Source of the DNA: Tribonema minus
Lineage: Eukaryota > Sar > Xanthophyceae > Tribonematales > Tribonemataceae
Reading direction: 5' to 3'
DNA: 64,000 bases
Assembly (NCBI GenBank): GCA_017506865.1
Contig: JAFCMP010000018.1
Span: forward strand, 62,001 to 126,000
Shown here one piece after another: positions 561-43,705 of the stretch. Numbering within the stretch: the stretch's first letter is position 1; every line of letters starts with the position of its first letter. Under the pieces are notes generated by a model. That model did no database searches and was not told the origin of the DNA. It saw only the letters and a program-made list of their open reading frames with translations. The translations under genes and the position numbers were made by a program.

Positions 561-880
561 GCCAGAGCTGTGGGGAGTAATCATGCAACGGCGATAGCCT
601 ACCTGCTGTACAAGGGGTTCTCGCCCATGCAAATTCCCAACCCTCGCTGTAACCCTCACCCCACTTTCTAACCCTGACCGCAACGCTTGCGTACCTGGGC
701 TGCGGGCGGCAACAACGTGGCAGTGGTAGAGCACCTCCCAGACCCCCTAGCCCTACTCATTACAACTCCAGACCTTGACTTAGTCGCTAACCCTGGCCCT
801 AATCTTAGCTCAAATTCTAACTGTCGCACGCCAGGGCTGCCAGCGGCAACCACGTGGCGGTGATAGAGTAGCCGCTGTCC
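561..880 (+). repeat. Three 5'-edge echoes of ankyrin exon 973-1105
   Basis: Copies at about 561-625, 689-745 and 829-880 repeat the acceptor and first 40-60 nt of the exon at 973 (AGAGCTGCGGGCGGCAACCA type sequence), with increasing decay; the third has TAG where the exon has TAC. None contains the exon's 3' half. All lie upstream of the intact exon. Confidence 0.75.
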
Positions 881-972
881 AAGCCCTCCAAAATCACATC
901 CCCATTCCTCGAACTAATTGTTACCCTACCTCTGAGTTTATCCCAACCCACACCCTAACTGCCTTGCACCAG

Positions 973-3528
973 AGCTGCGGGCGGCAACCACGTGGCGGTG
1001 ATAGAGTACCTGCTCTCCAAGGGCGCACCCGTGGATCAGGCAGACAAGTCGGGACGGACCGCGCTGCACTGGGCCGCCATCAGCGGGCACCTGGAGGCGA
1101 CACAGGTAGGTTTTGAAGTAGGGTTTGGAGTGAACGGCACTGGGCCGCCATCAGTGAGCACTGGAAGCAACACAGGCAGGGTTTGAAGTAGGGTTTGAAG
1201 GTTTGCTCAGTCGGGCTGGACCGCATCGCACTGGGCCGCCATCGCAGATAGGACTTGAAGTATGACAATGTTAAAGCAGGGTTTGAAGGCTTTCCAATTA
1301 TGTCACGCCGCACTGCACTGGGCGGGCACCTGGAGGCGACACAGGCAGGGTTTGAAGTAAACTTGGAATTTTTCTTTCTCATTGCCGTCCCCGGACGCGC
1401 CGTGCAGATGCTGCTTGATTCCCACATGTTAGTATTCGGAAGTATCAATATTACATACTTCAAGTAAAATGAGTCACTCAGTACATGACTGAAACCTCTT
1501 TATAGAAGTATGTGTTTTTTGTGCTGACATCCTCACGCGTCGCGCCGCGCAGCTGCTGCTCGACAAGGGCAGCGCGATGATGGCAAAAACGGGCAGCGGC
1601 TCCAAGGCGTTTCACCTGGCAATAGAAGTATCATTTTACATGTAGTTACAGATGAACCCTTTTTTTTTTACATTCAAGAGCATGAGTTTGGTCGCTAATT
1701 GCCGTCCCCAAACGCGCGCTCGCAGCTGCTGCTTGACAAGGGCAGTGCGATGATGGCAAAAAAAGGCACCCCGTGCCCCATCCTGCCATGCTCCTACACA
1801 ATCAGTAGTACAAGTGTCGCCATGTGTAGTTTATATACGTTGTTTTTGCTGATCAATTTCCTCATGTGTGTCGCGCAGCTGCTGCTTGACAAGGGCAGTG
1901 CAATGATGGCAAAAACGGGCAGCGGCTCCACGGCCTTTCACCTGGCGGCGGAGGGGGGTCGCGTGGACGTGGTGCGGCTGTTCATGGAGCGCGCGACCGC
2001 CGCAGCCAGCCTGGACGCGCTCTGCAATGAAAAGGTATTTCCATAATCAAATGAATACTTTCTTTGAATTTCGTGAGACGAATCAGAAGAAGTGATATAT
2101 ATCGTACTGCGGAAGGCAGGCGCGCGGAGGTGGTGCGGCTGTTCATGGAGCGCGCAACCGCCGCGGCCACCCTGGACGCGCTCTGCAATGAAAAGGTATA
2201 TTTATGAAGTATGCATACTTCATAATGTAGTAATAATAGCATCAAAAAGTAGAGGTAATACAGAGGTAATGCGGAAGTGCGGAAGCCTTCTAAGTATAAA
2301 AAGTGTACCATAACTAGGGTTAGGGGTAGGTATGGGCAGTGGCTGTTCATGGAGGTATCGCGGAAACCTTTCAAGTACTTGGGAAATTTGCTACATATGA
2401 CTAGATAAGGGGTAGGTATAGACATAGATAACTAGGTGAGGGGGGGTACATACAGCAGATGCGCGGTTTTCCGAGCATTGCTTGTTGAAGCGCGCAACCA
2501 CTGCGGGCTGCGCACACGCGCTCTACAACAGAAAGGCTAGATAAGAAGTGGTGGCTAGGGTGAGGATGAAAGATAAGGTCATCGGTAGGGCAGCGTTTGC
2601 GCTTTCCGTGCATTTTGCCATGAGAAGGGGGGGGTCACAGAGCAGGGTGAGGATGAAAACCAGGGTCAACGATATATAGGTGATGACTCACTGATGAGGT
2701 TTGGTCGCTAATATCAAAAATGGGATATGTAGGTAGGGCTAAGGTCATGATGGGAACTCCGATCAGGGGTAGGTGTAGGTATGGTGCCCCTTTCCAGTGG
2801 TGCAGTTGTCTAGATGGCGCGCGCCTGTGGCAGAGCAGAGGTCTGCACGGAGCACGGGGCTTTGGAAACAAAGCTCTACTCGAGTAGGGCATTTGCATGC
2901 ATGCCCGACCTGTTGTACAAGCGGTACCCTAACGCTAACCCCAACCCTAAGCCCAAGCGGTCACGGACACGGGAAAGTGTAACACTTTCTAGAAAAATGG
3001 GGCACACTTCAGGATAGCCCATACTCACACTAACCCTAATTCTTACCCAAACCCTAACCTTGACCCCGCTGAATGTGTGCACCAAACACACATGGCGGAG
3101 TCCAAGGGGGGTGGGCAGATGGATGAGCAGCCAGTGGGGGGAGACGCCATTAGGCAAAGCTTTCAGAACTGATTTATTTTTTTTTTCAGCGCATTAATCA
3201 CTTTCAAGATTTCACAGATACTCGTAGAATCTAACATGTAGCAAGCTTGACATAGACCATCTGGGCTTGTTTGCGCTGAGCGAGAATCAATGAAAAGCTC
3301 GTGTTAGCATGCAATATGCTAAAGTCTACTCTTATCAGCGTTGGTTATATAACAATGGTTTGCTTGGATGAACCTCAGTGCCTCTCCGTGTGTTTGCTGC
3401 CACTGCAGGATTCCAACGCAAAGGGCGCGTTTGACCTCGCCGCCGAAGGGAAGCACCAAGCCGTGTGCAAGCTGCTAAAAGGTGCGAAGTTCGCCCTTAG
3501 CGTACATCTAGCCCCAATCGTTGATTGA
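973..3528 (+). CDS. Ankyrin-repeat protein gene, 3' part (5' end lies left of the window)
   Basis: Three exons join in frame: 973-1105 (enters in phase 2, so an earlier exon is needed), 1879-2034 and 3409-3481 or, read through, to a TGA at 3526-3528. The translation shows ankyrin helices: the end of the first exon (GRTALHWAAISGHLEATQ) runs into LLLDKGS of the second, exactly as an ankyrin unit should, followed by STAFHLAAEGGRVDVVRLF and then GAFDLAAEGKHQAVCKLL. Acceptors are CAG and donors GTAGGT and GTATTT. Ankyrin repeats bind proteins, so no enzymatic role can be given. The 3' end is ambiguous: exon three may read through 16 codons to the stop, or splice at GTGCGA (phase 1) to a possible ankyrin-like piece near 3753 (VGHLEAIARLC). 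Both long introns are filled with partial copies of the flanking exons. The exons look functional; the gene is convergent with the PP28-SAP gene. Confidence 0.75.
1137..1356 (+). repeat. Three 3'-edge echoes of ankyrin exon 973-1105
   Basis: Copies at about 1137-1180, 1221-1250 and 1312-1356 repeat the last 30-45 nt of the exon (CACTGGGCCGCCATCAG ... GGAGGCGACACAGG) and the start of the intron (GGTTTGAAGTAGG). All lie downstream of the exon and lack its 5' half. Confidence 0.75.
1549..1770 (+). repeat. Two 5'-edge echoes of ankyrin exon 1879-2034
   Basis: Copies at about 1549-1620 and 1712-1770 repeat the acceptor CGCAG and the coding start (CTGCTGCTTGACAAGGGCAG). The first extends 65 nt into the exon and the second about 50 nt, before unrelated sequence begins. 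Confidence 0.8.
2118..2878 (+). repeat. 3'-edge echoes of ankyrin exon 1879-2034
   Basis: A well-preserved copy at 2118-2196 repeats the last 75 nt of the exon including CTCTGCAATGAAAAG and its GTATAT donor. A poorer copy lies at 2461-2545 (GCGCGCAACCACTGCGG ... CTCTACAACAGAAAGG) and a doubtful one at 2815-2878. All are downstream of the exon. Confidence 0.65.
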
Positions 3529-8600: not shown

Positions 8601-11600
8601 ATACCTCCGCTGTAACATGACACTAAGCACGTGACCCCTGGGTTAGGGTTAGGGTTAGGGTTGCCGATATGCTGTACGCGCGCCAATTACGCTACCGGAC
8701 AGACACCGTGCGCTGTCAACGATGCGATATGAGCGTACGCACGTGTACACTTTATTCTCCCCTATCACGTGCTACCATCAAGTACTTGCACACAATAGTG
8801 TCACCATCATTACCATTGGTATAGGTATTACCGTGCACCGTCAACGATGCAGTTAAGATTGAGAATAGGGCTGGGACAAGCGCATGCATGCTTGCAGTCC
8901 ATTTTCCCTATAATCTGTTACCCTGAAGTACACACTAGTGTTATCATCATACAATTACTTCTTCATTACCTCGTCGCTTTCGTGACCTTCATCCTATCGT
9001 GCGCCGTCAATGCAACTAGCGCTGGAATACGGTTCAGGGCCAGCGTAAGCACGCAGAACAGTCCGGCCTTCCGATTACCTGTTGCTCTCAAGTTTACGAA
9101 AGTACTATCGTTACCACCATTAACTACCATTACCATCACTTCTACTTTACCTCGTCGCTTTCGTCCTCTTGAACCGCTGTGCCGTCGACAAAGTGGCCAG
9201 CGTACGCACGCGTACGTCCCCTTCTTCCCATCAACTGTGTAGTACCTACACAATAATGTTATCATTGCTACCATTATTATGGAAACGATATCAAAGATCG
9301 TAGAATAATACCTCGTCGCTTTCTTCCTCTTCATCGTCGTTATCCTCTTCCTCGTCTGAGCCCTCCGAGTCCAAACTGGCTAACGACAGGCGTTATGTAC
9401 ACGCATGCCCATCACTCATCTCGCCAATGCAATTGGTACACTCCACTCTTCTCATCACCTGTTAACTTGAAGTACGCAATAGTATCATCATCAGTACCCT
9501 TATGACATTACCTCGAATAACCCATGTAGTCGCTTCGAAATCCACCATAGTTCAATCATCATAACCATCATTACTGCTTCTTAATTACCTCCAACATCTT
9601 GACCATTTTTATTACTTCTTTTGAAAGCACCTCGTCGCTTTCTTCCTCTTCATCATCCTCATCGTCATCCTCCTCGTCTGAGCCCTCGGAATCGCTGGCA
9701 GCCGCCGCCGCCGCCGCGGCCGCGCGCCGCTTCTTTTCCTCCTCTGTCAGCTGCGCCGCCATCTCCGTCGCTTTCTGCGCAGCGGTGACAGCAGTGACAC
9801 ACAGACGCACACAACTTGAGCATGCAGGTCCTCCGTCCGACGCGCGAGAACAGGCCATGTGTGTGTGGAGGGGGGAGGCTGCGGTTGCTGTTCAACGCTC
9901 TGAGCGTGGCTGCCTCCTCCGTCAGCTGCGCCACCGACTCCGACGTTTTCTGCAGTTACACAGCAGTTACACGGCAGTTACGCACGCGGCACACAACGCA
10001 GCGTCAGCTTGCAGGTCTCGCTCCAAAGCGCGAGACCGCGCCGGGGGCGCGCACAGGGAGGGTTAGGATTGTACGTTAGGGTTGGGCAGCCGCTGAGCAC
10101 TGATGCTGAGCGCTGCTTCTTCTCCTCCTCCTCAGTCGCGGCGCGCGCGCACGACGACCGGCCTCTGATGGTACAGAGCGCTCAAGCATGCCAACCAGGC
10201 TGTGTGTTCAATACATACATACCCCCCTCGACACCGATGCCTACATACCTTTGCCTGCTCCTCGCGGCGCGCGCGCACGATGGCCAGCCAAAAACGCTAT
10301 GACAGCAATGGACTACTGTTTTTCTCTTTGCAATGCACAACGCCCAAGCATGCTACATGCCAATCCCGGTATGTGCGTCTATACATGCCTACCCCCCTGT
10401 GCACCAATGCCTACATACCTGTGCCTGCTCCTCGCGGCGCGCGCGCGCACGATGACCGGCCTCAGATTCCACGACCATGTACAAAGCGCTCAAGCGGCTG
10501 TGTGCATCGACCACATACATGCCCCCCTCTATACCGATGCATACATACCTTTGCCTGCTCCTCGCGGCGCGCGCGAACAATGGCGAGCCTCTCCATGTCC
10601 GTCCGCGCCTCATCCGTCTTGCCGGCGGCGTGCAACTTCAAGTAGTGCGCCTTCTTGCGCTCCGCCTCCAGCGCCTCACGCTCCTGTCGATGAGAAAGAT
10701 TCAGGCAGGCTGAACTTCAATGGTTGTACTCCAATTGTTGAACTTCAAGTGATTTGATACGTTTGAGTTTTTGCGGTGTCCGTCTTGCCCGCGGCATGCA
10801 ACTTCAAGTAGTGCGCCTTCTTCCGCTCCGCCTCCAGCGCCTCGCGCTCCTGTGGAATTCGGGCACATTTGATGCTGGTGAACCTACACTGCTGCATAAA
10901 CACGAATGCGTTTTGGTGTCCGCGGCGTGCAACTTCAAGTAGTGCGCCTCCTTGCGCTCCGCCTCAAGCGCCTCGCGTTCCTGCATTTAAACAATTTGGG
11001 CACATGGTTGATGCTCGTGAACTTAATCTCTTGCGTGAAAACGGATGCGTTTGTTGCCCGCGGCGTGCAACTTCAAGTAGTGTGACTTCTTGCGCTCCGC
11101 CTCCAGCGCCTCGCGCTCCTGTCCATGTGCAAAATCCACGCAGGCTGAACTTTCATGGTTGTACTTCAACTGTTGACCTTCAGGTGATTGATACTATAAA
11201 GAAGTATGTGTTTGTGTTTTTGAGGTGTCCGCCTTGCCCGAGGCGTGCAACTTCATGTAGTGCGCCTTCTTGCGCTCCGCCTCCAGCGCCTTATGCTCCT
11301 GTGACACAAGAATTTGGGCATGTTGATGCCGGTGAACTGAACTCATTCTTAACTGTCGCATCAAAGCAAATGCAATTGTTGCCCGCGGTGTGCAACGTCA
11401 AGTAGTGCGCCCCCTTGCGCTCCGCCTCTAGTGCCTCGCGCTCCTGCAATTTCAAATTGCAGGCGTGGCCGTGTGGAATTTCGCGTATTGCTTCAAGAAT
11501 TGCATCAAAAACATCGTGTGTCATGAGGTTGAGGGGTGTGAACATGCATGACCATCTCGTGTCGTGCTGAACTCTGATCGTTTCCTTGACATCAAGTCAT

Positions 11601-14600
11601 GTGACAGGTGCTCTCAAGGTACTCGGGTCGTGCTGAACTTCAAGTGTTGTCTTACATTTGTGTCATGTGAGAGGCCAAGGCTTGCTCGTCTCGCTGCGAA
11701 GTGCAACTTCAAGTAGTACGCCATCTCGAGTCTCGCGCTGCGGTCGCCTCACAAGTCGACCTTGCGCTGTTGAAGTTCAACAGCTGCTTTTGACAAATGC
11801 GTTTGGTTGAGGAGTGAGCACACTCTTGCTTTTGCCCAGCGTAAAGCGCGCCTAGTCTGCTCTGCCGCCTCCTGCAATACACGCATGTTGAACTTCAACG
11901 ATTGATCTTCAACTGCGAACTGCATACCTTCGCCACAAGCGCCTCGCGCTCCTGCGACTGTGCGGACCGTATGCGACAATCTTGATCTCAACCCCCACGC
12001 CTCAATTTTTCATAAGACAGGAATTGCAGGAATGCATTCTGTTATGTGAGTGGACGTGAACTCTGTCCGTCATCGTGCGTGAGCCATGCGCTGCACATTT
12101 CTGTACCCACCCGTTGGGCTTCGATTGTTGCGTCTCGAAAATGGGTCAGTGGTGAGGCTACAACCCATGGTCGTCTTGCACGCAGAAGGGCACACAACCC
12201 CCCAGCAGCTGAGTGACCATGTAGCCTCTACGCTTGCACTTGCCAAGCCCTAAAAGTGCAAAAGTACTAGCAGCACTTCCTGGAGGTAATTGCACACGTA
12301 ACCCTACTTCCAAAACCTCGCTAGCCTTAGCCCTAGCCCTAGCTAGCGCAGGCCATACATACGTACCCTGCGGCTGAGCGGCTCTGGCTCTGCGGTCGCG
12401 TTGTCCAGGTCCTTGATTTTGACGTTCTTCTTCTGCACCGCGTTTGGGTTGGCCGTCTCGATGATCTGCACGGGGGAGGGAAGGGGGGGGGGGGGGGAGT
12501 TGATTGAGCGCATGGTGCAAACATGGCCTGCACCTGCACGAATCAGAAGAATTCATGAACATGATTCAGAAGAAATCATGTCCATCAATTCATCTCTCAT
12601 TAGGCGCCGCCTGCAGAAGGCCGGAAAAAAACAAAAAGGCATGTGCTGTTGGAGCCTGCTGCAGCATTTGCGATGAGCGCTGCAACATCATGCCAGCCTG
12701 CCCTGCACAAGTCAGACGCATTCACTTCTAACCATATGGCTTTCAGAAGCAGTTTGAACCCCTAGTGAAGGCACTGGCGGCACCGCGTGCATGCAGAGAC
12801 CGGCAGTCACAATCTTTACAGCACGTGCTGCTGAAGCTGCAGAGCAGTTGCAGTGCCTTGACAGTTGGCAGTAGGTAGGCCACCAACGAAAACGAAAACA
12901 GCAGCTCAAATTAGCACGCGTGGCTCAGTGCCACGCAAATTTGCGACGCGGGTATAACCCTCACCCTAATCTGATACTGACCCAGACACAACTGGCCGAT
13001 CAGCGAGCACAGCTGCTGCAGCACCATATTGAGCGCTGGAACATAACTGCGCCATCGTGATGAGCGCTGCGGCATCATGCTGAGCGCTGCTGCATGATGA
13101 GCACTGCTACAACATCACGATGAGCACTGCTGCGTAATGATGAGCGCTGACGCCGCTGACCTAACCCTCGCCCCAAAATAAAGATGCGACTTCGCAGGGG
13201 AGTCAAGCGTGCACATTTTGTTGAAGTCGGGCGCAGCAGTGCTCAACAACGTGACCCTGAGCACTGCTTGATGCAGTGCGCAGCGACGCTCTGATGCTCC
13301 GCACTCACCCCCTGGGTCCCCTTGAACTTGACGGTCTTCTGGTCTTCCAACGTTTCCTGGAAGGGGGGGAGCGAGAAGAACAGCGGGGCAACGGCTGTGT
13401 TCATGAGTGACAGTCCTCATCAAGTACGCCATGAAAAATGTAGGCGGGGCAAGAACCGTTTCCATTTCAAAAATCCAGACTCTTCCTTGGTTTTTTGTGC
13501 GTGTACTCCAAGCAGACGTTGGACTGCCCCCAAATGTACTCTACGCAGTCATCAGACTGGCGCACAAACGTACGCTAACCCCCGACGCGACGCGTGCACC
13601 CTAACCCTAACCCTAACCCTAACGTTTTATGCGCAGAGGACAGCGAGAAGAACAGCGGGGCAACGGCGGCGTTCATGAGTGACAGTCCTCATAACCGCTG
13701 AGGGGCAAGGTTAGGGTTGGCGGGTAGGGCTAGCGGCGCAGCCGTGACACCACCTGCCGAACAAGGGACCTAGCAGAAGCCCCATCGCTACAAGGCCGCA
13801 ACGCGCACCCCGCATCAATCTCTGCATGGTTGTATTACTCAAGGACTGCTCTGAGATCCAGCGCACAGGACTGCCCGGACCTGCGCTGGGCGCATTCGCA
13901 GGGGCACATGTGCCAACTTGAAGCTGAAGGAGCCGTGTAACAACACATCTCCGCACGCTCTGCGCCCCGGCCGCGCATTCGCCGTTCAACAGCAGGCGTG
14001 TGCGGCGCTGATGGCGGCACAGCCTCAACCCTATATGCTTGCGATTACGGCAACTTGTTTTGGATTTGCAATTTGCAGCACGCATCTCCAAAACCCTACA
14101 TTTCGACAATTTTACTCAAAAACCAGCGCGACCTCTAGATATCTGCCTGGAGTTGGACCCGCTGTAGCGCGGACGGCCACTTGAAGTTAGGATAGCCACT
14201 TGAAGTTGACAGTCCAGCAGGTGAAGAAGCCAAAACAGCAGATCTCAGCGTGCTGCGCTGAATAGGGCACACCACCGCACGCGCACCGCACACGCAATCG
14301 GCACCAATGCAGCGCGTGCTTGCGCGAAAGCACTGCTGCAGCGAATGGCGCATGCGTCGCTCAACAACAGGCGTGCGGCGCGCGCCGCGCATGCGCTCAG
14401 CAGCGCCGCAGCGCCTGCTCGCGCTCCGAGCACTGTTCCAGCTGACAGCGCATTCGCCGCTGAACAGCAGGCGTGCAGCGCGCGGTCGCCATGCACGCAG
14501 CAGGCGGGGCGGGCGCACAATACTCCTGACCTACCTTAAACGCCGTCCCCAACCCTAGTTCTTGCCGTTATCGTAGCCCTGCACCCCGGCACCTGCTTCA

Positions 14601-17600
14601 ATCAGGCTTGGGCGTCACTGTCCGGCTTGCCGCACGACGTTGCAGGCAGCGGAGCGCGCGCGATGCAGTTGTCTGGCAGCATTGCTAGTATCCAACACTG
14701 GGGATAAAAATTCATGCAACCGAAATACGAACCAACTGGCAACAAACTGCTCTTGTACATTTCTTGGACAAGAGTCCCTCCTGGTTTTGCTCTCCTGCCA
14801 GAGTTCTTGTTGTTGCTCGACTTGCACAGGCATTTGTGTGCGCATTCTACGCCGCACGCACGCATGAACGGGCAGCGGCGGCGCGCGCGCGGCACGACCC
14901 CGCTGCCCTCGCGCTGGCGCGGCAACAAGCAGCAGCGCTCAGGGCTGCCTGCTGCCCCCTCTGCACTGGCTCTGACGCTCCGCGGCCTTCGCGCTGCCCA
15001 GCCGCATGCGCGACAATCGCGCACACGCGCAGCTTGCGCGCCTGCAGTACCGCTGCTGAGGCGTGCTGAGCGCTGCCATCGCAGCGGCGGCTGTGTAGTA
15101 GCCTGCGCTTTAGGGGATGGCTGCAGGGTGACAGGTGGTAGCTACGGCGGCATCTGCTCATGTGGCGACGGCGGCGGCGCAGACGAGCCTGCTGCGGCAA
15201 TGTTGTCACATGTCACGTGGCTGCCGCTGCCGTTACTGTCAAGCGGCGGCAGCTGTCAGACGGCGGCAGCAGTGGCAGCGTCAGTGGCGCATCTAGCTGC
15301 GCATCTACATCACTCAGTGTGTCCGTAGCAGAAGGCTGAGTGCTGTCGACAGTTCGCTGCTCTGACCCGAGCACAGCTGTTTGTCGAGGTGGATGGCAGC
15401 GTGGCCGACAAGACGTGCTGAGCACTGTCATCGCAGCCTCAACGGTCCGCTGCTCTGGTTCTACATAGCGCAGCTGGTTGTCGGAGCGCCTGCCTAGATA
15501 GCGGGTGCAGGGCGCTGGCACGCGGCTCCCCTTTCACATGCCCCCTTCTCCCCCCCCCCTCTTTGCGTCCCCTCAGCAAACGTCCCCTGCTCAACACTGC
15601 GTACTGACGCGATCGAAGCCTTCCGTGTGCTACTTGCACCAGGTCAGCGCCGCAACAGTCCCTCCATGTAGACCTCTCGCCCCCCCCCCCCCCCCCCCCC
15701 GCATGCGCCCCCTTAGCACTGGTAACCATGCGCGTGAAACAGTCTGAGTTGCACCCGATTGCTCACACGCGCCTGCAGCAGTGCTCAGCAGAGCCTGCTG
15801 GCGCTGAGCATCGCTGCGCCTGTGACGCTGGTGAATTTGATCATTGCTCTTGATGAGTTGCATTTGATCATTGCTCTCAAGGCGTGCGCGTTGGCCTGCC
15901 TCGCCGCCGCAATGACGCTCCTCCATGGTCGGAGGCACGTCGCCGCCTTGAAGTGCTACACTACGCACCTGCAGCAGCGCTCAGTTATACGCTGCAGCAG
16001 CGCTCAGGTGAGGCTGCCTCTGAGCGATGTTGCTGTGGCCGCATTCAGAGGCACGTCACCGCCTTGAAGTGCTGCGCTACACAGCTGCTGCGGCAGCGCT
16101 CAGGAGAGGCTTCTGCTGAGGGATGTTGCTAAGCAAAATTGCTATGGCGCAGCCGCAGCATCGGTCAGGTGCGCACGCAGCGTACCTGCGCAGCTGTTGC
16201 CAAGGCGGCAGCCTTCATCGCGCTCATCATCTTCCTCCCCGCCGCGCCGCATGTCTACCGCTTCTGATACGCACTGTATGACGATGTCTGCAGCGACGCC
16301 TCATACTTGAACAGCATATGTTGCCACGGCGGCTTCGCTGTACATCCTGTGTGCACGCTGCCATCGTGAGTACACCTAAAACAAACAAATGTAGCCCGTA
16401 CCTGAGCGGCTTTTGCCAGAGCAGCAGCCTCAAAGGCCTTGGTGTGCGCCTCGTCATCCTCCCCCCCGCTGCCCCCCTCCTCCCCGGACTCCCCGTCCTC
16501 CCCCTTCTTGCCGCTCCACTGCGACTCCCGCGTGTTGCGCGCCTCCATGTCCTCCAGCGAGGTGATGTACTGCGTGGGCAAGGGGAGAGGGAAGGGGGGG
16601 GGGGGGGGTTGAGCAGCTGATGGGACAGCAGCAGGTGGTGGTAGCGGGGGGGGTTGACTGAGCCCATGGAAATAGGGCTGGTGGCCACGGGGGGGGGGGG
16701 GGTTGCGTGTTGCGCGCCTCCATGTCCTCCAGTGAGGTGATGTACTGCGCAAGTTCAGGGGGGCGGGGGACGTGGGGGGGGGGGTCAGCAGCTGATGGGA
16801 CAACAGCAGCTGGCTGTAGCGGGGGGGGGGGTTGAGCGGCTGATGGGATAACAGCAGGCGGCCGCAGCGGGGAGGTGATGTACTGCACGAGTTCGGGGGG
16901 GGGGGGGGACGGGGGGGGGAGGGGGGGGGGGTTGAGCGGCTGATGGGACAACAGCAGGTGGCCGGAGGGGGGGGTGGGGGAGTAACGAGCAGCGCTGATG
17001 AAAATACAGCAGGGCTGTGGCGCGGCGGCGTGCATGTTAGGTGTAGCATGCAGTGCGGTCATCTGCAGGGGAGTCAAGAAGAAGTAAATCGAGATTCATG
17101 CAAGAAAGAGTGCATTGAAGTGCACGGCTGCCTGAGCCCTGTGCGGATGCTGGGGGGCATACATACATGGGTTTGAACTTTCCACCAGGTGAACCACAAC
17201 GTCATGTAAAGCCCAGCACCATCGGAGTGAAGTAGGCAGTGACGAGATGTCCTTGGGTATGAGATTCAAGCGCAGACGCCAGTGCAGCAGCTGAATGGCG
17301 ATTTCGGATACCAGACTTGTCTTGCAGGCATGCTCTTGCAATCTCTGACTGAACCGTCGCCGCCGACCTCCCTTTGCGTCGACAACAAAAGGCAAAGGGT
17401 GTCACAGGTCGACGGCTTTATTCAGTTACATCATCTGCCATCATCCTGTCACTCACGCTTCTGCGGGCGCCGCCACGGCCGCCGCGCTTGCCCTTGTTCA
17501 CTCCTGAATTGCAGCAAAGCAGGTCAGATCAAGCAGTAATAAGTCAGCTTGGCGCAACCATGGAGGATCTGATCTATGGCAGACCACCGAATGGTAGCAG

Positions 17601-21508: not shown

Positions 21509-24500
21509 CAGGGCCCACCGCAGGCCAACGCTGCCGTCCACCTCCCAATTGCCGTTGTCCACCCACGACAGCGCGTACACGTTGTCGTTGGCGGTCTTGA
21601 CGATGTACGACATGCCTGGCTGCAGGAAGTTCACGGCCGCGGTCTGCGGCAGCGCACCGGAGTAGGGCAGGAATACAATTGGAATTAGGGTTAGGGCTGA
21701 GGTTAGGGTTAGGGTGAGGGATAGGGTTAGGGTGAGGTTTGAGTTAGTTTCAGGGTTGAGTTAGGGTTAGGGTTAGGCTAGGTTAGCGGGGCGCGCGGCG
21801 CGGGGTCAGCAGCAATTGCTCAGCGTTTGTGGCAGCCTGGACTGCGGAAGCGAGGTCGCAACGTCCCTGTTGCTTCACACGCATGACGCCTGGGTGCTGC
21901 GGTCACGGTCGACTCCAGCAGGAGACCACTGCATGCGAGCTTTGAGCGCCAGATGAGTGTACATGTTGTTGTGTACCGGGTTGCGCCAAGGCAGTTTCGT
22001 GGGGAAGTGCTGCTTAGGGTTAGGGTTAGGGTTAGGGTTAGGGTTAGTTGTGCTGCGTGCTCGCGCTCGCCAGCAAACGCAAGTGCAACGGACAGGGGGT
22101 CATCCTAGTGATATGTTGCCTGGGAACAAGGGAAGCACATCTCGGGCTCAGGTCAAGTCAAGTCAAAATCTGAGTCGAAAGCGCTCAGTGCGCAAGGGCC
22201 ACAGCAGCCGGCGGTTGCGCCAGCACACAGTGTTTTCAGATACCTATGCCAACATGCGCTGGCAGCTCCGTGGGTGGTTTTGTATCGCTTGAATGCCCTG
22301 GGTGGGTGCACGAGTACTCGGCACAAATCACGCAGAATGCAACATCGATCTGTCGTGAAGTGCGCAGCATGCACCTGCTCTATTCTGAGCGCTGCTGCTG
22401 CACCAGCGGTTGCCCACGCTCGCCGCAAACATTGTGGGGCAGCTCCCGCACCAAGTGACTACCAGAAACTTCAACTACTGCAGTATCGCAAATCCCACTT
22501 CAAGTACTTTCAACAAGAGCTGCATATCTTGCATAGGGTCTCCACTCCTCGAGCGGAACTGACTAGATAGAGCACTTTGAATTGAATCCTGCTGAGGCGC
22601 AAAGAAGCCTAGATGCTGATACACTTAAACAGCACCATGAAGTACGTGAACTTCAAGCGGAGACGCTCTCACCGGCGACGGCAGGGTTCCCGCGGGGCCT
22701 GCAGCCCCATAATGTCCTCGCATTCGGAGGCGCGGCTACGCCCATGAGAAAGTTAGCGCTGCGGCGCTTGTGGTTCTTGCTGAGGGCGCAAAGAAGCCTA
22801 GATGTAAAAACAACGAAACTACGAAGGACATGAACTTCAAGCGGGGACACTCGCCGGCGACGGCAGCGTCCATACAGGCCACGTGGCCCCCATAATGTCA
22901 TCGCACGTCAGCGCATTCAGCGGCGTGGCGACATCCATGAGAAAGTGAGGCAGCGCCGCAGCGCTTGTGATGCTTGCTGAGGGCGCGAAGAAGCCTAGAT
23001 GCTAATACGATACAAAGAGCACTACGAAGTACGTGAACTTCGAGTGGAGGAGCTCTCAGCGGCGACGGCAGGGTCCCCCCGGGCCCCGCGGCCCCCATGA
23101 TGTCCTCGCACGTGAGCGCATTCAGCGGCGTGGCAACACCCATGAGAAAGCCGCAGCGCTTGTGATTCTTGCTGAGGGCGCGAAGAAGCCTACTTCAAGA
23201 TGCTTGTACAGTGTTCAAGCGGGGACGCTCACCGGCGACGGCAGGGTCCCCCCAAGCCCCGCGGCCCCCATGATGTCCTCGCACGTCAGCGCATTCAGCG
23301 GCGTGGCGACACCCATGAGAAAGTTGGGCAGCGCCGCGGCGGTCATGGGCGGCGCCGCGAGACCGCTGCTGTACAGGTACCACGTGCTGTCCTGCCCGAG
23401 GCTCCAGAGGTCGACGTCGAACTGACGCATGAGGGCCATGCTAGAGGCGGTGCCCCAGGCGTTGAAGTCCATGGTCTCGCCCGTCTCAAGGTCGATCATG
23501 TTGTCGCTGCCTTTGGCGAGGAATACGGCGAAGGCGGGGGCGTCGATGGAGGAGCAGGTGATGTCCGGCGACACGGTGGTGCCTGATGAGGGGGGGGGGG
23601 AGGGGGGGGGGGGGGGGGGGGTGATGTTGAAGTTGAAGTAGGTGAGGGACGTGGGGGCTTCAGCCTCTGAGAGGGCACGCTGCTGAGAGAGCGCAAGGGT
23701 GAGATCGGGGCACTTCAGACTGTACCGAGAAGGCATCCTGGGCATCAGGCGCGCTCCCCCATTCCGTTGGCCTGTTGCCTTACGTGCACCCCTTTTTTAA
23801 AGTGTCATCGGAGCGCTTAGGGTTGAGCAATTAGGGTTAGGGTTAGGATGCATCTGCGACCGCATCTACCCCGTGCTCATGCCAAGTGCATTGACGTACA
23901 TGCTGCGCTTGCTGTTGCGGGTGTCAGAGGCGAGGCGAGAGTTAACCCTTACCCTAACCCTAACACTAACCCTAACCCTACCCCTAAGGGTGACATCGTG
24001 GCTACCCAAGAGGGGCAGCGTCATGTGTGGAGCCAGCAAAGAGAAAGGGACGGGGAGCATACGCGAATAGTCAGGTCAACTGACCCTAAACGAACAGCGC
24101 CTGCATGCTCTAAGCGGGACGTTTAGGTGCCTTGTCAGCTACTTGTGCAGAGCCCAACTTCAGAGCTCTTCTGCGACTGTTTCCTGTCCTGCTCCACTAG
24201 CACAAACAAGTATATGTATACCGTGCATCAGCAACAAGACAACGCCCTGCTCTCATTGAGACTCTTGAGACTCTGTCACCTTGTCAAATAGTCTCTATGA
24301 CCTTGTCAGAATAGTATTAGTACTACGTTACCTTCAAGCATTTACTCTCTGGTAGGACACTCGTTATTGTTCAAAGTAGGTAGTAGGTGGTTGGTACCTT
24401 CTTCAACATACATGCACTTATAAATAAATAGAGGTATTTGTTATGATGTACATGGTCTGATAAATCCACGGTTAAACTCTAGTTCTCGTACCAGTGGGCG

Positions 24501-31400: not shown

Positions 31401-34400
31401 GGAACGTCCCATCAGCCGCCATCTATCCCTCCTCCATGCTGACTGACCTGCGTATCGCCCTCCCATGGTGATTGTACCTAATCCTAACCCTAATTGACAC
31501 GCCGTCAACCGCCCAACTTGAACGTTCGGTGCTGCGCATGATGCACCTACACTGCAGTTGCTGAGCACTGCGCACCCTGCAACGGGTGCTGAACGCTGCG
31601 CCCCTGCGATGGTCATGTATCGCTTTGAGCGCAGCAGGGCATGCAGCCATCAACGTGCTTACTCTGCAGTTTTCGAGCTTATTTCGCAGTTGCTGAGCGT
31701 TGCACCTTGCGATGGGTATGTATGTATCGCTTCGAGCGCAGGACGGCGTGCCGCACTGCGACGACCTCACTACGCCGTGCCAGCAGCACGGCGTGTCGCC
31801 GGTGCTGGCGCGGTGCTCAAACATGCCGCCGCCCGCTGGTAAGAGAACTAGATTGTAACCGTGTATCTACCAGAGCATGTACGTTATGACATAGAAGTAT
31901 ATGAATACGAATCAAAAGATAGAAGAGCTCCAGGTGACAAGGAGTGGTTGACCGCAAGTGCCTTCCTCCAAGAACCGTGGTCGCCGCTGCTGCAGTCATG
32001 GGCCACGAGTCAAACAGTGTATATAAGCGTACAGAAGTATATGTTAACAAGATGGTGCCAACAACCTACTATCTACTTTGAACAGTAACGGTAGTCCTAC
32101 CAGAGAGTAAATAATTCAAGATGATATTATGTTTTAGCCAAGGTGATGAGAGTCTCGATGAGAGCAGGGGTGGCATAGTGTTGATGTACAGTGTACATAT
32201 ACATGCGCATGCAGTGAGGACAGGAAGCAGCCGCACAGGAACTGAGAAATTGGAGTTTGCAATCACACTTGTAAGGGGGTCTTGAGGGCCATGCTTAGAG
32301 CTTGCGGGCACTGTTCGCCAAGGGTTCGTTATCCTGACTATTCGCGCAAGCATCTCGTCCCTTTCATTTCACCGGCTCCACGCATCCCTGTAGTTTTGCC
32401 GGCCCCGCAAATCAGGCTGTCCATCTCTGGTAATCGCAAAGTCATTACTTGCCCTTCCCTCAAATGTGACAGCGATGGCAGCGAGCCTGAGAGTGTACGT
32501 CGGTGTACACTGCATGAGCACGGGTCGCTGCGCTTGCGGATGGGCCCTGGCCCTAACCCTAATTGCTCCTTTCAGGCCGGCCCGGTCAGTTGACGGCATC
32601 TCTTTCAATTTAGCGCACGCAGCGCTGGCACTGCACTCCCTCGCGTGTGCAATCACGCGCCGGTGCAACGCCATCTTGACGCTGTGCGGGAGGCGACTCT
32701 AATACGCGGGAGACATATTTACCAACGCAGTGTGTATGCCTTATTGGTTCTGTACAGTGCGACGTGCGGTCACAGGGTTTCCGCACCTCAGGCGGAAGTA
32801 GATGAAGTTCAGTCTGAAGTGCCCCGAATTTACCACTGCACTCTCTCAGCAGCTGAGCGCACTCTCTCAGAGGCCTAGACCCCCGATTCCCATGCCTACT
32901 TCAAGTTCAACATCAGCGCGCAGTTGACACCCCCCACCCCCCCAAACCAGCCACGCTGTCGTCGGCCGTCACGTGCTCCTCCACCGATGTACACCCCCAC
33001 ATCTCTCGCCTACTTCAAGTACGACATTGCATATCTTGATTTTTCACAGGGCTTCCGCCCCTCAAGCGGAAGTGATGAAGTACAACATTGGCGATTGGCA
33101 CGCAGTTGACATTTGACATCGCCCCTCTTCCCCCCCCCCTCCCCCCTCATCAGGCACCGTGTCGCCAGACGTCACCTGCTCCTCCGCTGGCTTAGACCCC
33201 CACGTCCCTTGCCTACTTCAACTTCAACATCAGCGCGCACTTGCCACCGCTCCCCCCCCCCCCCAAACAGGCACCGTGTCGCCGGACATCACCTGCTCCT
33301 CGGCTTAGACCCCTACTTTAACTTCAACATCAGCGCGCAGCTGACCCCCCCCCCCGCCCCCCCCCCCTCCTGTCCCCGCATCAGGCACCGTGTCTCCCGT
33401 CATCACCTGCTCCTCCGTGGGCGCCCCCGCCTCCATCACAACCCTCGCCGCCAGCAGCGACACCATGATCGACCTCGAGACCGGCGCGACCATGGACTAC
33501 GATTCCTGGAGCGCCGCCTCTGGCGCGACCCTCGCGCGTCAGTTCGGTGTTGAACTCTGGAACATCATGAGCACGTGGTACCTGTACAGCAGCGGCTTCG
33601 TGGCGCCCATGGGAGGCCTACCGCTGCCCAACCTCGTCATTGGCGTTGCCACACCTTTGGACGTGCTGACGTGCGGCGACATCATGGGGGCCACGGGGCC
33701 TGCGGGGATGGTGCCGTCGCCGGTGAGCGTCACCGCTTGAAGTTTGCGTGCTTTCATAAAGTATTGTATTGACTGTGATTATTTTCCAGGCTTCTGCTGG
33801 CGCTAAGCGAGAATCGGTGCAATCAGTACGAAGTACTCCATTTGCTTGCGTTCAAGGGGCGGAAACTCTATCAAGTCATCGCGGTCCCAACTTGAAGTTT
33901 GCGTACTCGCAAACACTTCATCTAATTCCGATTGAGGGGCAAAACCCTGTCAAATCTGAGAGACATCTGTCTGGACACTTGTAACCACCGCATTTACGTC
34001 CGTGTGAGAGGCAGAAACCCAATCAAATTTGCAAGACATTGTGCTTGATGCAATGCAGGGCTTCAAAGCATTTAGAGTGGGATTTGCGGCTCCAGTAGTA
34101 GTTGAAGTTGGTGGTCACACGGGGGCGGAACTGCCCCATTACGCAATGTGTGCGATAAATGACGCACTAAACGTGGGGCAGCCGGTGGCGTGGCAGCAAC
34201 GCTCAGACCTTTGGACGGAGCAGGTGCATGCTGTGTGCTCTGCGTTGACAGGTTGTTGCATGCCGAGCAGTTTGCGCCAACTTGAAGCATTTGCGCGCCC
34301 CAGCCAGAGCATTCAACAGCTTCGCCCCCCCGCCCCCCCCCCCCCCCCCGGACTCGGAGGTGCCAGCACACATAGTCAGTCAGGTATCCAGGCAGTCTGT

Positions 34401-34968: not shown

Positions 34969-35079
34969 GAGAGTAGGTACTTGATTTACCTCCGCTCGAG
35001 GGGCAGAAACCTTGTGAAAAATGCAGGATATGCCGACAGGTACACTCACTACTTTTGGAAGTGGTGCTCTCTTGTCTGA

Positions 35080-37490: not shown

Positions 37491-37832
37491 AGGTAACGTC
37501 ACACACATGCACAATGCAGATCTCATTGCAAGGCAATGGAGAGCGCGGAAAAAATCGCGTGAAGTTCAGTGGCTACTATCTTGCAGCAAACCGGTGCAAA
37601 AAGGAGACCAAAACAAATCTCTCCACCGAAGACGAGGAGTTGAAGTTTTGGGAAGTTGCGGCAGTGCTCTCCGAGTTGGAGCTCTCCTGGTGCTTCACAG
37701 GACACCAATCCGCAGCGTGGCCGAGCCTGTAGCCAGTTCTGACTTCGATACGACGTGATCATGGGCAGAGGCAAGCGGAAAGGTATTACAGAGGGTTCTG
37801 GTCTCCATGATGATCTGCGATCTCTGGGAGAG
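37490..37832 (+). pseudogene. Right-arm copy of the PP28-SAP 5' flank and exon 1
   Basis: The ATG at 37758 is followed by GGCAGAGGCAAGCGG, matching exon 1 and intron start of the PP28-SAP gene, but the GTAAGC donor has become GCAAGC. Homology ends about 75 bp later, so no further exons exist here. Confidence 0.85.
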
Positions 37833-38439: not shown

Positions 38440-38690
38440 TGTCGTGTGTCGCAGGCAGTACGCAAGGCAAATGCCGGTGTCTGCACGCTCTCTAATTTAA
38501 CCTCAAGTGCTTGCAAAAACACGGAGCCGTTCTCGTTCTCGGCGTTCTCGAGGAACAGAACTGACACCGAGAACCCACGTTTTTGCCAAAAATCTCAAGA
38601 GAAAGGCAGAGCAGGAGCTTGAGTTGAGTTAGAGAGCGCAGACACCGGCATTTTGCCTTTGCATACTGCCTGAGACGCACAGCCGCAACA
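38440..38690. repeat. Hairpin-forming inverted repeat upstream of MMACHC
   Basis: The block 38440-38505 (GTGTCGCAGGCAGTACGCAA ... CACGCTCTC) recurs in reverse complement at 38625-38690, with mismatches, around a loop containing CTGACACCGAGAAC. This arrangement is what sits, duplicated, at the palindrome centre. Confidence 0.85.
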
Positions 38691-38745
38691 TCAGCGAGAC
38701 ATCATTACCAAGATCTTTTCTGACACAGGCAGAGACTCAAAGCAC

Positions 38746-41700
38746 ATGGCTTCTAGCTGGCAGCTGTATGCATCCGCTCTAGCGGCTGCTGTGAAGCCTC
38801 ACGGCCTCGATCTGAGCGCGTCCCTGCGATGCGAATGGTATAATAGCCTCGTGAAGCCCCCTATGCACCTCGCCGTGGGCTCAAATGGCGGGGTCAGCCT
38901 GGCTGTCCTCTTGGGCAATTCTGTGGCATTCTGGCCGCCGCTTTTGGCCACTTTGAGAGAGAAGAAATGGCAGCCTGATGACGCAGCGGTGGAGCCGGCA
39001 GCTGCAGCGGACGCGGCGAACAATTGCTGCCAGGACCTGCCTGGGGAGCGGAGCTGGGGCAAGCACCCCATAGATGCTTATGTGGTGAGTAGATAGTATT
39101 CAAGTAATTAAGCGCAGATCATGTGCGCCCATTTGAGTTTTCAGCTGCCCAGGGTTGCTCTAAGGTCCGTGTGCAGTTGTCTCCTGCGCCAGGTTGCTTG
39201 CGGGGCGCGCGTGAGCCTAGAGAAGCATGAGAGTAGCACAGTCTACGAAATCACATACGGCAAGCAGTAGGTCGGGAGGTATGTCAGGCTGCATGAGCAC
39301 TTTGATGCACGTGATCCCACCTAAATTTCTCCTAGTTTTATCGAGGAGTTCGCGCCTTTTGAAGGTCTGATGTCCATCATTGTTGCGTGGAATTTTCTTA
39401 CTTCCAACAAGGTGGTCTATATTGTCCGCAGATGGACGCGGTGAGCGCTGCCATGGGGATATCGTCGCAACGTCATACATGCGTACACATGCATACTCAT
39501 ACACGACACAGAAAACAGCATCACCCCAAGCACAAATTCCCCGGCGTCACCAATCCGCGAGTCAACGTGCGACGCTCCGCAGATGGATGTGGTGAGCGCT
39601 GTGCAGGAGCTGCGCGCGTCCGATGCACTGCCCGCGGCAGCAGCACCCCGAAAGGCACTCGACTACTTGAGCACTGTCCGCCTGCCTCACCCCCCCCCCC
39701 CCCCCCCCTTTTCTTCTCTCAACATGTAACGCTCCGCAGATGGAGGTGGTGAGCGCTGCTGTGCGGGAGCTGCGCGCGTCCGACGCGCTGCCCGCAGAGG
39801 CGCGCGCGGCGGAGGTGAAGCTGTACTGGGCGCATGAGACGGCGCGCGGGCGGCTTGTCGCCATACAGCGCATGGCGCATGTCTCCGGCCTCGCGTGGTG
39901 AGACCATCTTAAAGGCATGCGCGCACATAGGCTGACTCCGACGGTTTCCATAACGCCGCACCGCCCTCGAGCACTTCGCCGCACTTGCACCTGCGCGACA
40001 TGGCGATACGGCGGCGCGCAGGTGGCAGTGAAGCGCGACGTCACGGCTGCTGCTCTACTGCAAGTTGAAGTTTCTAGTCCGCCCCGTCACCCGCCAGAGG
40101 CATGCTGTGGTCAGCATCAAGCGTACTTGCCGTCCTAAAACAGAACGTGGCACCACGTGCTCGCGGGGTGTGGTGGCAGAGAAAGTTGAACTAGCGAGAC
40201 TGTGGCGCGCGGGCGGCTCGTCGCCATACAGCGCATGGCGCACGTCTCCGGCCTGGCGTGGTGAGGTCAATCAGCATGCGCGCGCGTAGGCTGACTCTGA
40301 CAGTCTCTTGTCCCCCCCGTCGGCAGTGAAAGTTGAAGTTAGCGAGACGGCGCGTGGGCGGCGTCGTCGCCATACAGCGCATGGCGCACGTCTCGGGCCT
40401 CGCGTGATGAGACCATTCAGCAGCGCGCGCAGAGACTGACTCTGACGCAACGAGCACCAAGCATACTCTCCCTCGTCAGACAGATCGTGACACCACACGT
40501 GCTCACGGGTGTGACGGCAGAGAAAGTTGAAGTTAGCGAGACGGCGCGCAGGCGCCTCGTCGCCATACAGCGCATGGCGCACGCCTAAGGTCTGGCGTGG
40601 TGAGACCATAAAGCATGCGCGCGCGCAGGCTGACTCCGACAATTTCCATAAAGTCGCCAGCGCTCTCGGGCACGGCGCGCACTTCAAGTTGCACCCGTGA
40701 CATGGGGTTACGGCGGCGCCCAGATGGCAGTTAAGAGCGACGTCACGGCTGCGGCTCTACTGCAAGTTGAAGTTTCTAGTCCGCCCCGTCACCCGCCAGA
40801 GGCATGCCACGATCAGCACCAAGCATGCATGCTCTCCATCATCAATCAGACAGAATGTGACACCAGGCGCCTGCGGGTGTGATGGCAGAGAAAGTTGAAG
40901 TTATCGAGACGGCGCGCGGGCGGCTGCTCGTCGCCATACTGCGCATGGCGCACACCTTAGGGCTAGGGTTAGCTACCCTGACCCTAACCCTAACTCATAC
41001 ATAGCAGCGGGCGTCTCTGGCGGTGCTGAAGCAGCGTACCCTGACCCTAATCCTAACTCATAGCAGCGGGTGTTGCTGGCGGTGCTGAACGCAGCGCCTC
41101 TCCCAGCCTGAACCCGATCCCTCATGTGTGTGCGTGCGCGCGGCTGCCGCAACGCCTACCCCCCGCCGCAAGCTGCACGACAACACGCCGCTCCTGCCTG
41201 CCCACAGAGGTCCTGAAGCCAGCGCCTCTCGTAACCTCAAGCCCTACCTTCAACTCTCCCCCTCCTCCCTTCCCCCCCCCACCCCACCCCACCCCCCCGC
41301 AGGCTCCATGACAAGACGCACCTGTGTCTGCACCCGGAGGTCGGGCCGTGGCTCGCGCTGCGCGCAGTCTGCTCGTTGTAACCTCAAGCCCAAGTGCACC
41401 CCCCCCCTCCCCCCCCCCCGGTGCTGCAGGCTCCATGACAAGACGCACCTCTGCCTGCACCCGGAGGTAGGGCCGTGGCTCGCGTTGCGCGCAGTCGTGC
41501 TCGTTGTAACTTCAAGCCCCAACTTCAACTCCACCCCCCCCCCCTGCGCTGCAGGCTCCACGACAAGACGCACCTCTGCCTGCACCCGGAGGTCGGGCCA
41601 TGGCTTGCGCTGCGCGCAGTCGTGCTCGTCGACGTGCCCGGCCCCTCCGGCCCGCCGCCGCCCGCGATGCCGTGTCCCGCGTCTGAGGCAGAGGTGGCGC

Positions 41701-43238: not shown

Positions 43239-43269
<31 letters not shown>

Positions 43270-43705
43270 GGCATACAACTATCATAGAAAGAACGCTGCT
43301 ACCACTGCAGCAGGACACGCCGCAGCTGCCGGCGCCGCCGCCGCCGCTGCAGCATCAGCAGCAGCTGCAGCAGCAGCAGCAGCAGCAGGAAGGTAGACGG
43401 TGGCCGTAAAAAGGAGGCTGCTGCTGCTGCAACTGCCACGTCTTAGAGAGCGGTGCGCGCCGGGCGGGGAGGGGGGGGCGCCCGTGCGCTTCGCCCTGTG
43501 TGCCTGTGGCAGCAGCTGATGTATAAGAGCTGCTATCACTGACTCGTGCAGAGCTGCAGATTCGGGGCGCCACGATGCTGCCGCCGTGCGCGCCCACCGC
43601 TTCGCGCAGCTGCTCTACAGCGCATTGCGTCATGCTCCACGAGTGCAGTTTGCCGCAAAGAGCAGGGCCTCAGGAAGGTGCCGTCAATGCGGGCACTTGC
43701 AGTGA
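38746..43705 (+). CDS. MMACHC: MMACHC/CblC-like cobalamin-processing protein, 344 aa
   Basis: Five exons join in frame: 38746-39084, 39740-39897, 41555-41730, 43055-43270, 43560-43705 (stop TGA 43703-43705); junction phases 0,2,1,1. The order of motifs matches animal MMACHC: WYNSLVKPPMHL and LAVLLGNS in exon 1, HPIDAYV at its end, LVAIQRMAHVSGLAW in exon 2, HLCLHPEVGPWLALRAVVLV in exon 3 and EYHYHKD in exon 4. MMACHC (CblC) is a cytosolic flavin/glutathione-dependent protein that removes the upper ligand of imported cobalamins before delivery to methionine synthase and methylmalonyl-CoA mutase. A poly-Pro/poly-Gln stretch near the end of exon 4 is an insertion. The exon-4 donor is GC (GGCATAC); phase and frame support it. 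Exon 5 is assigned from phase and a good open frame (AVRAHRFAQLLYSALRHAP), with no family match. Confidence 0.86.
39430..39650 (+). repeat. Two 5'-edge echoes of MMACHC exon 2
   Basis: Copies at 39430-39465 and 39573-39650 repeat TCCGCAGATGG and the following exon bases (GGTGAGCGCTG ... GAGCTGCGCGCGTCC). Confidence 0.9.
40196..40962 (+). repeat. Four 3'-edge echoes of MMACHC exon 2
   Basis: Copies at about 40196-40263, 40345-40412, 40535-40603 and 40900-40962 repeat GTCGCCATACAGCGCATGGC and the exon end; the first and third keep GTGAGG/GTGAGA donors. Each is preceded by AAAGTTGAAGTTAGCGAGAC or a variant, which corresponds to GAGGTGAAGCTGTACTGGGC of the exon with changes. Part of the intron (40020-40090) is also repeated at 40725-40800. 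Confidence 0.9.
40957..40996. repeat. Interstitial telomere-type tracts facing each other
   Basis: TTAGGG units followed by CCCTAA units, directly at the end of the fourth 3' echo of MMACHC exon 2. A CCCTGACCCTAATCCTAACT repeat recurs at 41040-41060. Confidence 0.9.
41159..41515 (+). repeat. Three 5'-edge echoes of MMACHC exon 3
   Basis: Copies at about 41159-41235, 41300-41390 and 41427-41515 repeat GCAGGCTCCATGACAAGACG and up to 85 nt of exon 3, each ending at GCTCGTTGTAAC where the true exon continues with GTCGACGTGCCC. C-runs precede each acceptor. Confidence 0.92.
42289..42950 (+). repeat. Five or six 5'-edge echoes of MMACHC exon 4
   Basis: Copies near 42289, 42446, 42538, 42635, 42770 and 42900 repeat CTGCTGTCGTGCTGCGTCGC and the beginning of exon 4. 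The one at 42635-42700 keeps 50 nt of exon (AAGCGCAGCGGCGCCACCAG). Between them recur TCCCACCCTCACCCTCAGTT segments. Confidence 0.85.
43305..43397 (+). repeat. 3'-edge echo of MMACHC exon 4
   Basis: It repeats CTGCAGCAGGACACGCCGCA, the CCG/CAG tract, and ends CAGGAAGGTAGAC, so the echo has a GT donor where the exon itself has GC. Confidence 0.75.

Follow-up and report, generated by a model that had tools for sequence, protein, structure and literature searches.

Introns in the 64-kb stretch of the Tribonema minus (Xanthophyceae) genome analysed here (C18:62001-126000, hereafter the window; the genome comprises 158 Mb in 554 contigs) hold decayed partial copies of their own neighbouring exons, which we call echoes. 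These copies obey a side rule: copies upstream of an exon carry its 5' part, and copies downstream carry its 3' part. The phenomenon is real and reaches beyond the window, as the same rule was followed in loci of three other gene families. The echoes evolve as dead DNA and are absent from the two spliced products that were checked. Very probably they arose by tandem duplication over splice junctions with the original exon borders retained, followed by neutral decay and by in-register amplification of the arrays so formed.

Partial exon copies in the window

Self-comparison of the window (E<=1e-4) gave 97 direct pairs, 83 of them with a spacing below 500 bp, and 54 inverted pairs, just 1 of which was so closely spaced. 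Fourteen exon models were used, belonging to an ankyrin-like gene (3), a PP28 gene (5), the genes A and B (1 each) and an MMACHC-like gene (4). The MMACHC-like models derive from the EukProt transcript protein P0001 (96% identity, full query cover), and the Pfam MMACHC profile scored 23.3 bits on the product, under its cut-off of 27. The PP28 models derive from the Pfam PP28 domain and the transcript protein P0129 (53% identity), whose source label, 'Vauche', is read as Vaucheria. Exon borders are approximate for A, B and the ankyrin-like gene, the last being known as ankyrin only from an earlier note on this DNA; the translation of the gene B exon had no Pfam match.

After exclusion of matches overlapping an exon by fewer than 12 nucleotides (nt), self-diagonal matches and matches with their midpoint inside an exon, 47 matches overlapped a modelled exon by at least 12 nt. 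Of these, 43 conform to the side rule, namely 25 upstream copies of the 5' edge and 18 downstream copies of the 3' edge, so that the claim of the earlier note, about 45 decayed partial exon copies in these five genes with exactly this directionality, was reproduced. The four remaining matches comprise three upstream ones with the 3' edge, which are tails of 21-27 nt within PP28 5'-edge copies already in the count, and a lone downstream one with the 5' edge, made of 16 exon nt at a poly-C stretch. There is no convincing exception to the side rule among the window copies. No copy was found for 4 of the 14 modelled exons (ankyrin-like e3, PP28 b, PP28 c and MMACHC e1). The working exons and their echoes, in window coordinates, are as follows.

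975..1107, + strand: ankyrin-like working exon e1; approximate borders, copies on both sides, gene name from the earlier note
547..616, + strand: upstream echo of ankyrin-like e1, 5' edge; 74% over 72
648..736, + strand: upstream echo of ankyrin-like e1, 5' edge; 74% over 96
802..883, + strand: upstream echo of ankyrin-like e1, 5' edge; 78% over 82
1137..1200, + strand: downstream echo of ankyrin-like e1, 3' edge and donor region, at distance 71; self-comparison pair 1066-1130/1137-1200, 88%, outside the 43
1209..1288, + strand: downstream echo of ankyrin-like e1, 3' edge; 68% over 84
1322..1359, + strand: downstream echo of ankyrin-like e1, 3' edge; 95% over 38
1880..2035, + strand: ankyrin-like working exon e2; approximate borders
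1509..1620, + strand: upstream echo of ankyrin-like e2, 5' edge; 84% over 116
1721..1768, + strand: upstream echo of ankyrin-like e2, 5' edge; 94% over 48
2109..2220, + strand: downstream echo of ankyrin-like e2, 3' edge; 84% over 113
2486..2536, + strand: downstream echo of ankyrin-like e2, 3' edge; 71% over 51
16402..16568, - strand: PP28 working exon a, with copies; spliced product 53% identical to transcript protein P0129
16705..16813, - strand: upstream echo of PP28 a, 5' edge; 84% over 111
16181..16245, - strand: downstream echo of PP28 a, 3' edge; 68% over 73
10550..10682, - strand: PP28 working exon d, with copies; Pfam PP28 domain in spliced product
10779..11446, - strand: array of five upstream echoes of PP28 d, 5' edge (10779-10856, 10917-10983, 11054-11187, 11228-11326, 11379-11446); 84-94%
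11687..11752, - strand: upstream echo of PP28 d, 5' edge; 76% over 67
11928..11954, - strand: weak upstream echo of PP28 d, 5' edge; 85% over 27, E 1e-3
10127..10463, - strand: three downstream echoes of PP28 d, 3' edge (10372-10463, 10172-10289, 10127-10166); 78-81%
9631..9775, - strand: PP28 working exon e, with copies
9913..10144, - strand: two upstream echoes of PP28 e, 5' edge (9913-10031, 10085-10144); 71%
8954..9371, - strand: three downstream echoes of PP28 e, 3' edge (9310-9371, 9111-9170, 8954-8993); 71-85%
23214..23642, - strand: gene A exon; approximate borders, 76% to the B exon
22652..23130, - strand: three downstream echoes of the A exon, 3' edge; 78-83%, none found beside paralogue B
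33345..33741, + strand: gene B exon; approximate borders
32895..33264, + strand: three upstream echoes of the B exon, 5' edge (32895-32943, 33114-33191, 33158-33264); 75-88%, none found beside paralogue A
38747..39084, + strand: MMACHC-like exon e1; matches P0001, no echo found
39740..39898, + strand: MMACHC-like exon e2; matches P0001
39425..39635, + strand: two upstream echoes of MMACHC e2, 5' edge (39425-39458, 39562-39635); 85-87%
40204..40969, + strand: four downstream echoes of MMACHC e2, 3' edge (40204-40307, 40344-40447, 40538-40667, 40906-40969); 80-85%, absent from P0001
41553..41730, + strand: MMACHC-like exon e3; matches P0001
41152..41480, + strand: three upstream echoes of MMACHC e3, 5' edge (41152-41212, 41279-41376, 41356-41480); 76-88%, absent from P0001
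43054..43280, + strand: MMACHC-like exon e4; matches P0001
42592..42941, + strand: two upstream echoes of MMACHC e4, 5' edge (42592-42705, 42868-42941); 79-82%

A and B are inverted paralogues with exons 76% identical. Three downstream echoes and none upstream accompany the A exon; three upstream and no convincing downstream echo accompany the B exon. The difference between the two must stem from echoes gained later than the gene duplication, or from loss. Both genes lie inside an inverted duplication of a multi-gene block (17689-28182 versus 29003-38924), which also contains, out of order, a copy of MMACHC exon 1 (27858-28182, 86% to 38606-38924).

The side rule beyond the window and the decay of the copies

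Profile matches in three families, kinesin motors (132 exon matches), CCT chaperonins (56) and DEAD helicases (38), served to sample other loci. The kinesin sample comprised 20 of 40 planned loci, multi-exon genes chosen blind to echoes, and the DEAD sample 3 of the 7 genes having two neighbouring matches. Four of about ten CCT genes were taken, 3 of them after overlapping rows of the hidden Markov model (HMM) search were visible, and consequently the CCT frequencies are biased upward. Matches with fewer than 12 nt within the exon or anchor and self-diagonal matches were excluded from these counts.

The kinesin loci held 59 upstream copies of the 5' edge, 32 downstream copies of the 3' edge, 1 downstream copy of the 5' edge and no upstream copy of the 3' edge (91 conforming, 1 violating), with a remainder of 10 internal or full same-strand matches and 4 opposite-strand matches. 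Upstream 5' and downstream 3' copies numbered 22 and 21 in the CCT loci, where both other classes were empty (43 : 0) and the remainder was 8 internal or full and 4 opposite-strand matches. The DEAD loci had 8 upstream 5', 15 downstream 3' and 1 upstream 3' copies (23 : 1), besides 1 full and 1 opposite-strand match. Pooled over the 27 loci, the side rule stands at 157 : 2, and both exceptions are more than 900 bp away, the DEAD one being a match of 61% identity 955 bp off. The other matches amount to 20 internal or full ones (array overlaps included) and 9 on the opposite strand, 4 of which are self-palindromic. In these loci, counting copies by side and exon half around junctions, which the earlier note had proposed for the whole genome, did not give equal numbers of 5'-half copies in the downstream introns.

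At least one rule-conforming copy was present in 17/20 kinesin, 4/4 CCT and 3/3 DEAD loci (24/27). Furthermore, overlapping matches spotted by eye in the HMM output alone, six in number (1 kinesin, 4 CCT, 1 myosin), all conform; where adjacent exons overlapped by 18 profile positions or fewer, this was treated as profile overhang and omitted. The DEAD-box HMM search had no echo-like overlapping matches in its 38 rows, yet the DNA comparison of three of these genes revealed echoes.

The copies carry the marks of dead DNA. Substitutions were analysed in kinesin and CCT echoes with at least 30 nt of exon, 98 of 135 entering the analysis and the script further skipping short overlaps. Between echo and working exon, substitutions at codon positions 1, 2 and 3 reached 0.122, 0.107 and 0.199, and the ratio of nonsynonymous to synonymous change (N/S) was 0.434 (up to 98 echoes for both). 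About 0.5 is expected for one dead and one constrained lineage, a far lower value for two coding lineages and about 1 for two dead ones; the observed value therefore indicates that the echoes are dead and the working exon is constrained. Indels of 1 nt (140) and 2 nt (28) far outnumber those of 3 nt (168 versus 6), and 15 stop codons occur in 1902 echo codons. From positions 1 and 2, we estimate that the echo's own branch would average about 0.11 substitutions per site. None of 120 echoes holds more than 90% of its exon, the median share being 25% (exon lengths from anchors). As a separate observation, the upstream echo of MMACHC e2 at 39562-39635 encodes LPAAA, like P0001, whereas the working exon (39740-39898) has LPAEA; this echo seems to retain an older exon state.

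Two spliced products could be compared with the echoes. P0001 joins MMACHC e1-e2, e2-e3 and e3-e4 directly, without any of the 11 echoes of the gene. The annotated T. minus CCT-theta protein P0009 is identical over residues 15-556 of 556 in locus L024 (contig C135), its first 14 residues being outside the stretch; there the acceptor used lies after the echoes and the donor before them, as the rule predicts. In these two products, one a transcript and one an annotation, echoes do not behave as normal alternative exons, the possibility by which the earlier note had said its reading could fail.

Duplication units, arrays and rival explanations

In the mechanism that we favour, introns would lengthen by tandem duplication of units typically of 100-200 nt. 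When a unit spans an acceptor, splicing would continue at whichever acceptor is closest to the working exon, and the upstream unit, with intron end, acceptor and 5' part of the exon, would become dead intron; when it spans a donor, the donor nearest the working exon would stay in use, and the downstream unit, with 3' part of the exon, donor and intron start, would die likewise. Since the protein is unaltered, the event would be tolerated, the dead copy would mutate neutrally and the working exon would remain constrained. In-register misalignment of units already present would supply part of the further copies, and nested arrays would result. The earlier note had proposed duplication across junctions with the original borders used, and homology to the far end of the unit, the dead state of the copies and the joins in P0001 and P0009 all agree with it.

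Across 279 kb, made up of 24 sampled loci and the window's first 50 kb, a diagonal scan detected 599 local direct matches, versus 0 in a chunk-shuffled control. Distances range from below 20 nt upward with a broad mode at 100-200 nt (220/599, multiples within arrays counted), and the sensitivity of the scan was 0.29 for a distance of 30 nt and 0.71 for one of 40 nt, approaching 1 from 80 nt onward. A minimum period of about 90 nt, suggested by blastn, was dropped: blastn detection was 0.025 at 80 nt and 0.925 at 90 nt. Because blastn is blind near the main diagonal, distances were taken from the diagonal scan, and the kinesin, CCT and DEAD copy counts and the intron edge-family counts miss short-period echoes. 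At 45 edges whose nearest copy lies 80-260 nt away with at least 20 nt of exon and at least 30 nt of intron, this copy is a median of 154 nt off, with an exon portion of 58 nt and an intron portion of 89 nt. Intron homology in the distal third of the predicted unit reached 0.65 versus 0.54 in random controls (p=2e-5), as is to be expected of tandem units.

Arrays are likewise evident. PP28 has a 435-bp higher-order repeat of several sub-units (10619-10988 versus 11054-11451), and copies share an exon end point to within 2 nt at 16/27 multi-copy edges (shuffled mean 7.3, maximum 15 in 2000). The repetition at each junction proposed in the earlier note therefore seems to be due in part to units already present being amplified in register, and not to independent events alone. 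The amplifier could be slipped or unequal exchange. At several unrelated edges (L007, L009, L012, L016, L023 and L024) the exon parts end 57-60 nt into the exon, a cluster noticed post hoc that may be due to chance.

Several observations weigh against this mechanism or narrow it. Two copies, one kinesin and one DEAD, break the side rule, and 19 of the 48 introns described below show no edge family. Homology also continues past the predicted breakpoint (0.67 versus 0.60 random, p=0.004; versus the distal third, p=0.52), as arrays would cause, and the test thus leaves the exact breakpoint unfixed. Many of the highly identical alignments span less than the spacing of the two copies. Exon identity is flat with distance (Spearman -0.06, p=0.56), giving no age gradient. 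Exon parts of echoes are better kept than intron parts, with an identity step at the junction; between two dead copies, identity is 0.80 in exon parts versus 0.68 in intron parts (floor 0.54), a contrast exceeding neutral decay alone. At edge 6097 of L024 (CCT) the same comparison gives 85-100% and 50-80%, against a floor of about 54% for unrelated sequence; this is a hint of conversion by the working exon, or else of higher-order units of mixed make-up. The transcript evidence consists of one protein from a close source, P0009 being an annotation. Moreover, AG is retained in 37/55 echoes and GT in 30/43, and lost dinucleotides therefore do not explain disuse; with many unused splice sites intact, we infer that exon definition, in which an acceptor is paired with the nearest donor downstream across the exon, would favour the original borders.

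The share of introns involved was assessed in a set of 48 introns from the kinesin and CCT loci (median length 805 nt), the CCT ones partly chosen for visible echoes. Direct repeats cover 31% of exon-masked intron bases and inverted repeats 2%, with none after Markov resampling. With pairs no more than 30 nt apart dropped, an edge family is present in 29/48 introns, and echo zones, from the junction to the farthest echo, make up about 35% of intron length; the rest consists of intron-internal duplicates and unexplained sequence. Junction-crossing duplication is accordingly a major route of intron growth, and the stronger wording of the earlier note, a main route, goes beyond these data.

Local duplication occurs away from junctions as well, and a somewhat unlikely alternative holds that tandem duplication strikes anywhere in non-coding DNA, blind to position, echoes being just those events that cross a junction and stay more visible through their constrained copy. 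Two-sided intron-only repeat cover is indeed about flat to 400 nt from junctions (0.23-0.39), and intron-internal families exist; edge families nevertheless outnumber them by 36 : 9 with blastn and 33 : 24 with the diagonal scan, although the typical intron has more internal room than edge room. One-sided exon-masked cover (transposons not removed) is 0.243 at 40-220 nt from the junction versus 0.097 at 300-1000 nt, a ratio of 2.5 (95% confidence interval 1.6-5.4); it is 0.212 near versus 0.109 far in introns of at least 700 nt, and near exceeds far in 17 introns of at least 760 nt and falls below it in 1, ties uncounted. Near cover amounts to 0.41 on the 35 junction sides with an exon echo, and on the 61 sides without one it is 0.120, about the same as the far value of 0.124, a similarity that would suit the position-blind alternative. 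The excess, confined to echo-bearing sides, points to a position-blind background with exon-edge-anchored arrays on top, and these arrays give about a two-fold excess near junctions.

Gene conversion from exon to echo, acting on top of tandem duplication and making arrays older than they appear, is unlikely; the identity step at the junction and edge 6097 of L024 would suit it, but the codon-position pattern fits dead and constrained lineages without it, and PP28 shows that unlike intron parts can stem from higher-order duplication of mixed units. Very unlikely is non-tandem local copying, by template switching or break repair, of exon-edge fragments into nearby introns: the high-identity stretches shorter than the inter-copy distance would agree with it, but it should ignore side and orientation, against the 157 : 2 and the few opposite-strand matches observed, and intron homology fills the unit; higher-order arrays, as in PP28, can account for the short alignments. 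That echoes are alternative or regulatory (poison) exons under selection is most improbable given the N/S value, the frame-breaking indels and stops, the lack of any nearly whole copy and their absence from P0001 and P0009, even if many retain AG or GT and their exon parts outlast their intron parts.

Some further features of the window deserve record. Direct-repeat cover is 18-40% before 43.5 kb, 13% at 43.5-54 kb and 2% at 54000-64000. Near-perfect tandem duplications stand outside the modelled genes at 48102-48384 and 50411-50600 (142 bp, 100%; 98 bp, 98%), from which the process may be recent or ongoing. Short TTAGGG/CCCTAA-type arrays are scattered at 13598, 21685, 22014, 23943, 30128, 31195 and 34756.

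Known systems and the growth of introns

In its account of the potato RdRp gene, one article describes a tandem duplicate over an intron-exon boundary, with intron 3' end and 5' part of the exon and with inherited splice signals (Ma, Lan and Niu 2016, PMC4974935). As there, the duplicated unit in T. minus spans the boundary, many of the 157 conforming copies including intron flank, and its intron part is homologous. The potato case, as far as that account goes, is a single event with a new intron and a recruited donor, whereas in T. minus the copies are absorbed in an existing intron, serially, at both exon edges and in most sampled genes, and MMACHC, the one gene judged by transcript (P0001), has no additional intron. 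In the Rogers model, as described in the relevant passages of PMC4974935 and PMC2891723, an exonic AGGT segment is duplicated in tandem at an intron-less position to give a new intron, and the latter source mentions introns gained in Drosophila through tandem duplication of exonic sequence. Splicing likewise hides the duplication in T. minus, the peptide being unchanged (MMACHC by transcript, CCT-theta by annotation); here, however, the unit holds intron and splice site, and an existing intron lengthens. Gao and Lynch 2009, as cited in PMC4974935, treated intragenic duplication of segments with whole introns and intron creation, which similarly alters exon-intron structure; the decayed exon-edge series set T. 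minus apart from that work as cited.

Minisatellite-type arrays consist of head-to-tail units, change copy number in register and form higher-order repeats. The T. minus arrays may be alike in layout, homology filling the unit and exon end points being shared at 16/27 edges; they differ in that one unit belongs to a constrained coding exon. Introner elements are single elements dispersed in introns of unrelated genes, whereas every counted echo copies the edge of the exon beside it (no echo was used for a genome-wide search). Unlike tandem or mutually exclusive alternative exons, the echoes include no near-whole copy and carry frameshifts and stops. The earlier note knew of no description of such series; our full-text literature searches, with subscription journals mostly outside their scope, found no systematic one, and the single potato case is in print. 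The idea of tandem duplication and one boundary-crossing case were already known.

It is possible, and we put it forward tentatively, that constrained exon edges act as permanent seeds, from which introns grow as a ratchet outward from the junctions, each with a fossil series of its own exon. Since selection holds the working edge constant, its resemblance to the dead copies would remain sufficient for the array to be renewed by slipped or unequal exchange, and arrays inside introns would lose homology and freeze. The two-fold intron-only excess, found only beside echo-bearing junctions, and the shared end points fit such seeding.

Little has been documented on intron lengthening free of transposons, and the published junction-crossing duplications that we found are isolated cases. 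With dead copies of their own junctions in 24/27 loci, duplication rates, neutral intron divergence and a border-protecting rule of splicing become measurable in one genome. An echo can retain an earlier state of its exon. In addition, many echoes keep open reading and splice dinucleotides, which makes them a hazard for automatic gene annotation.

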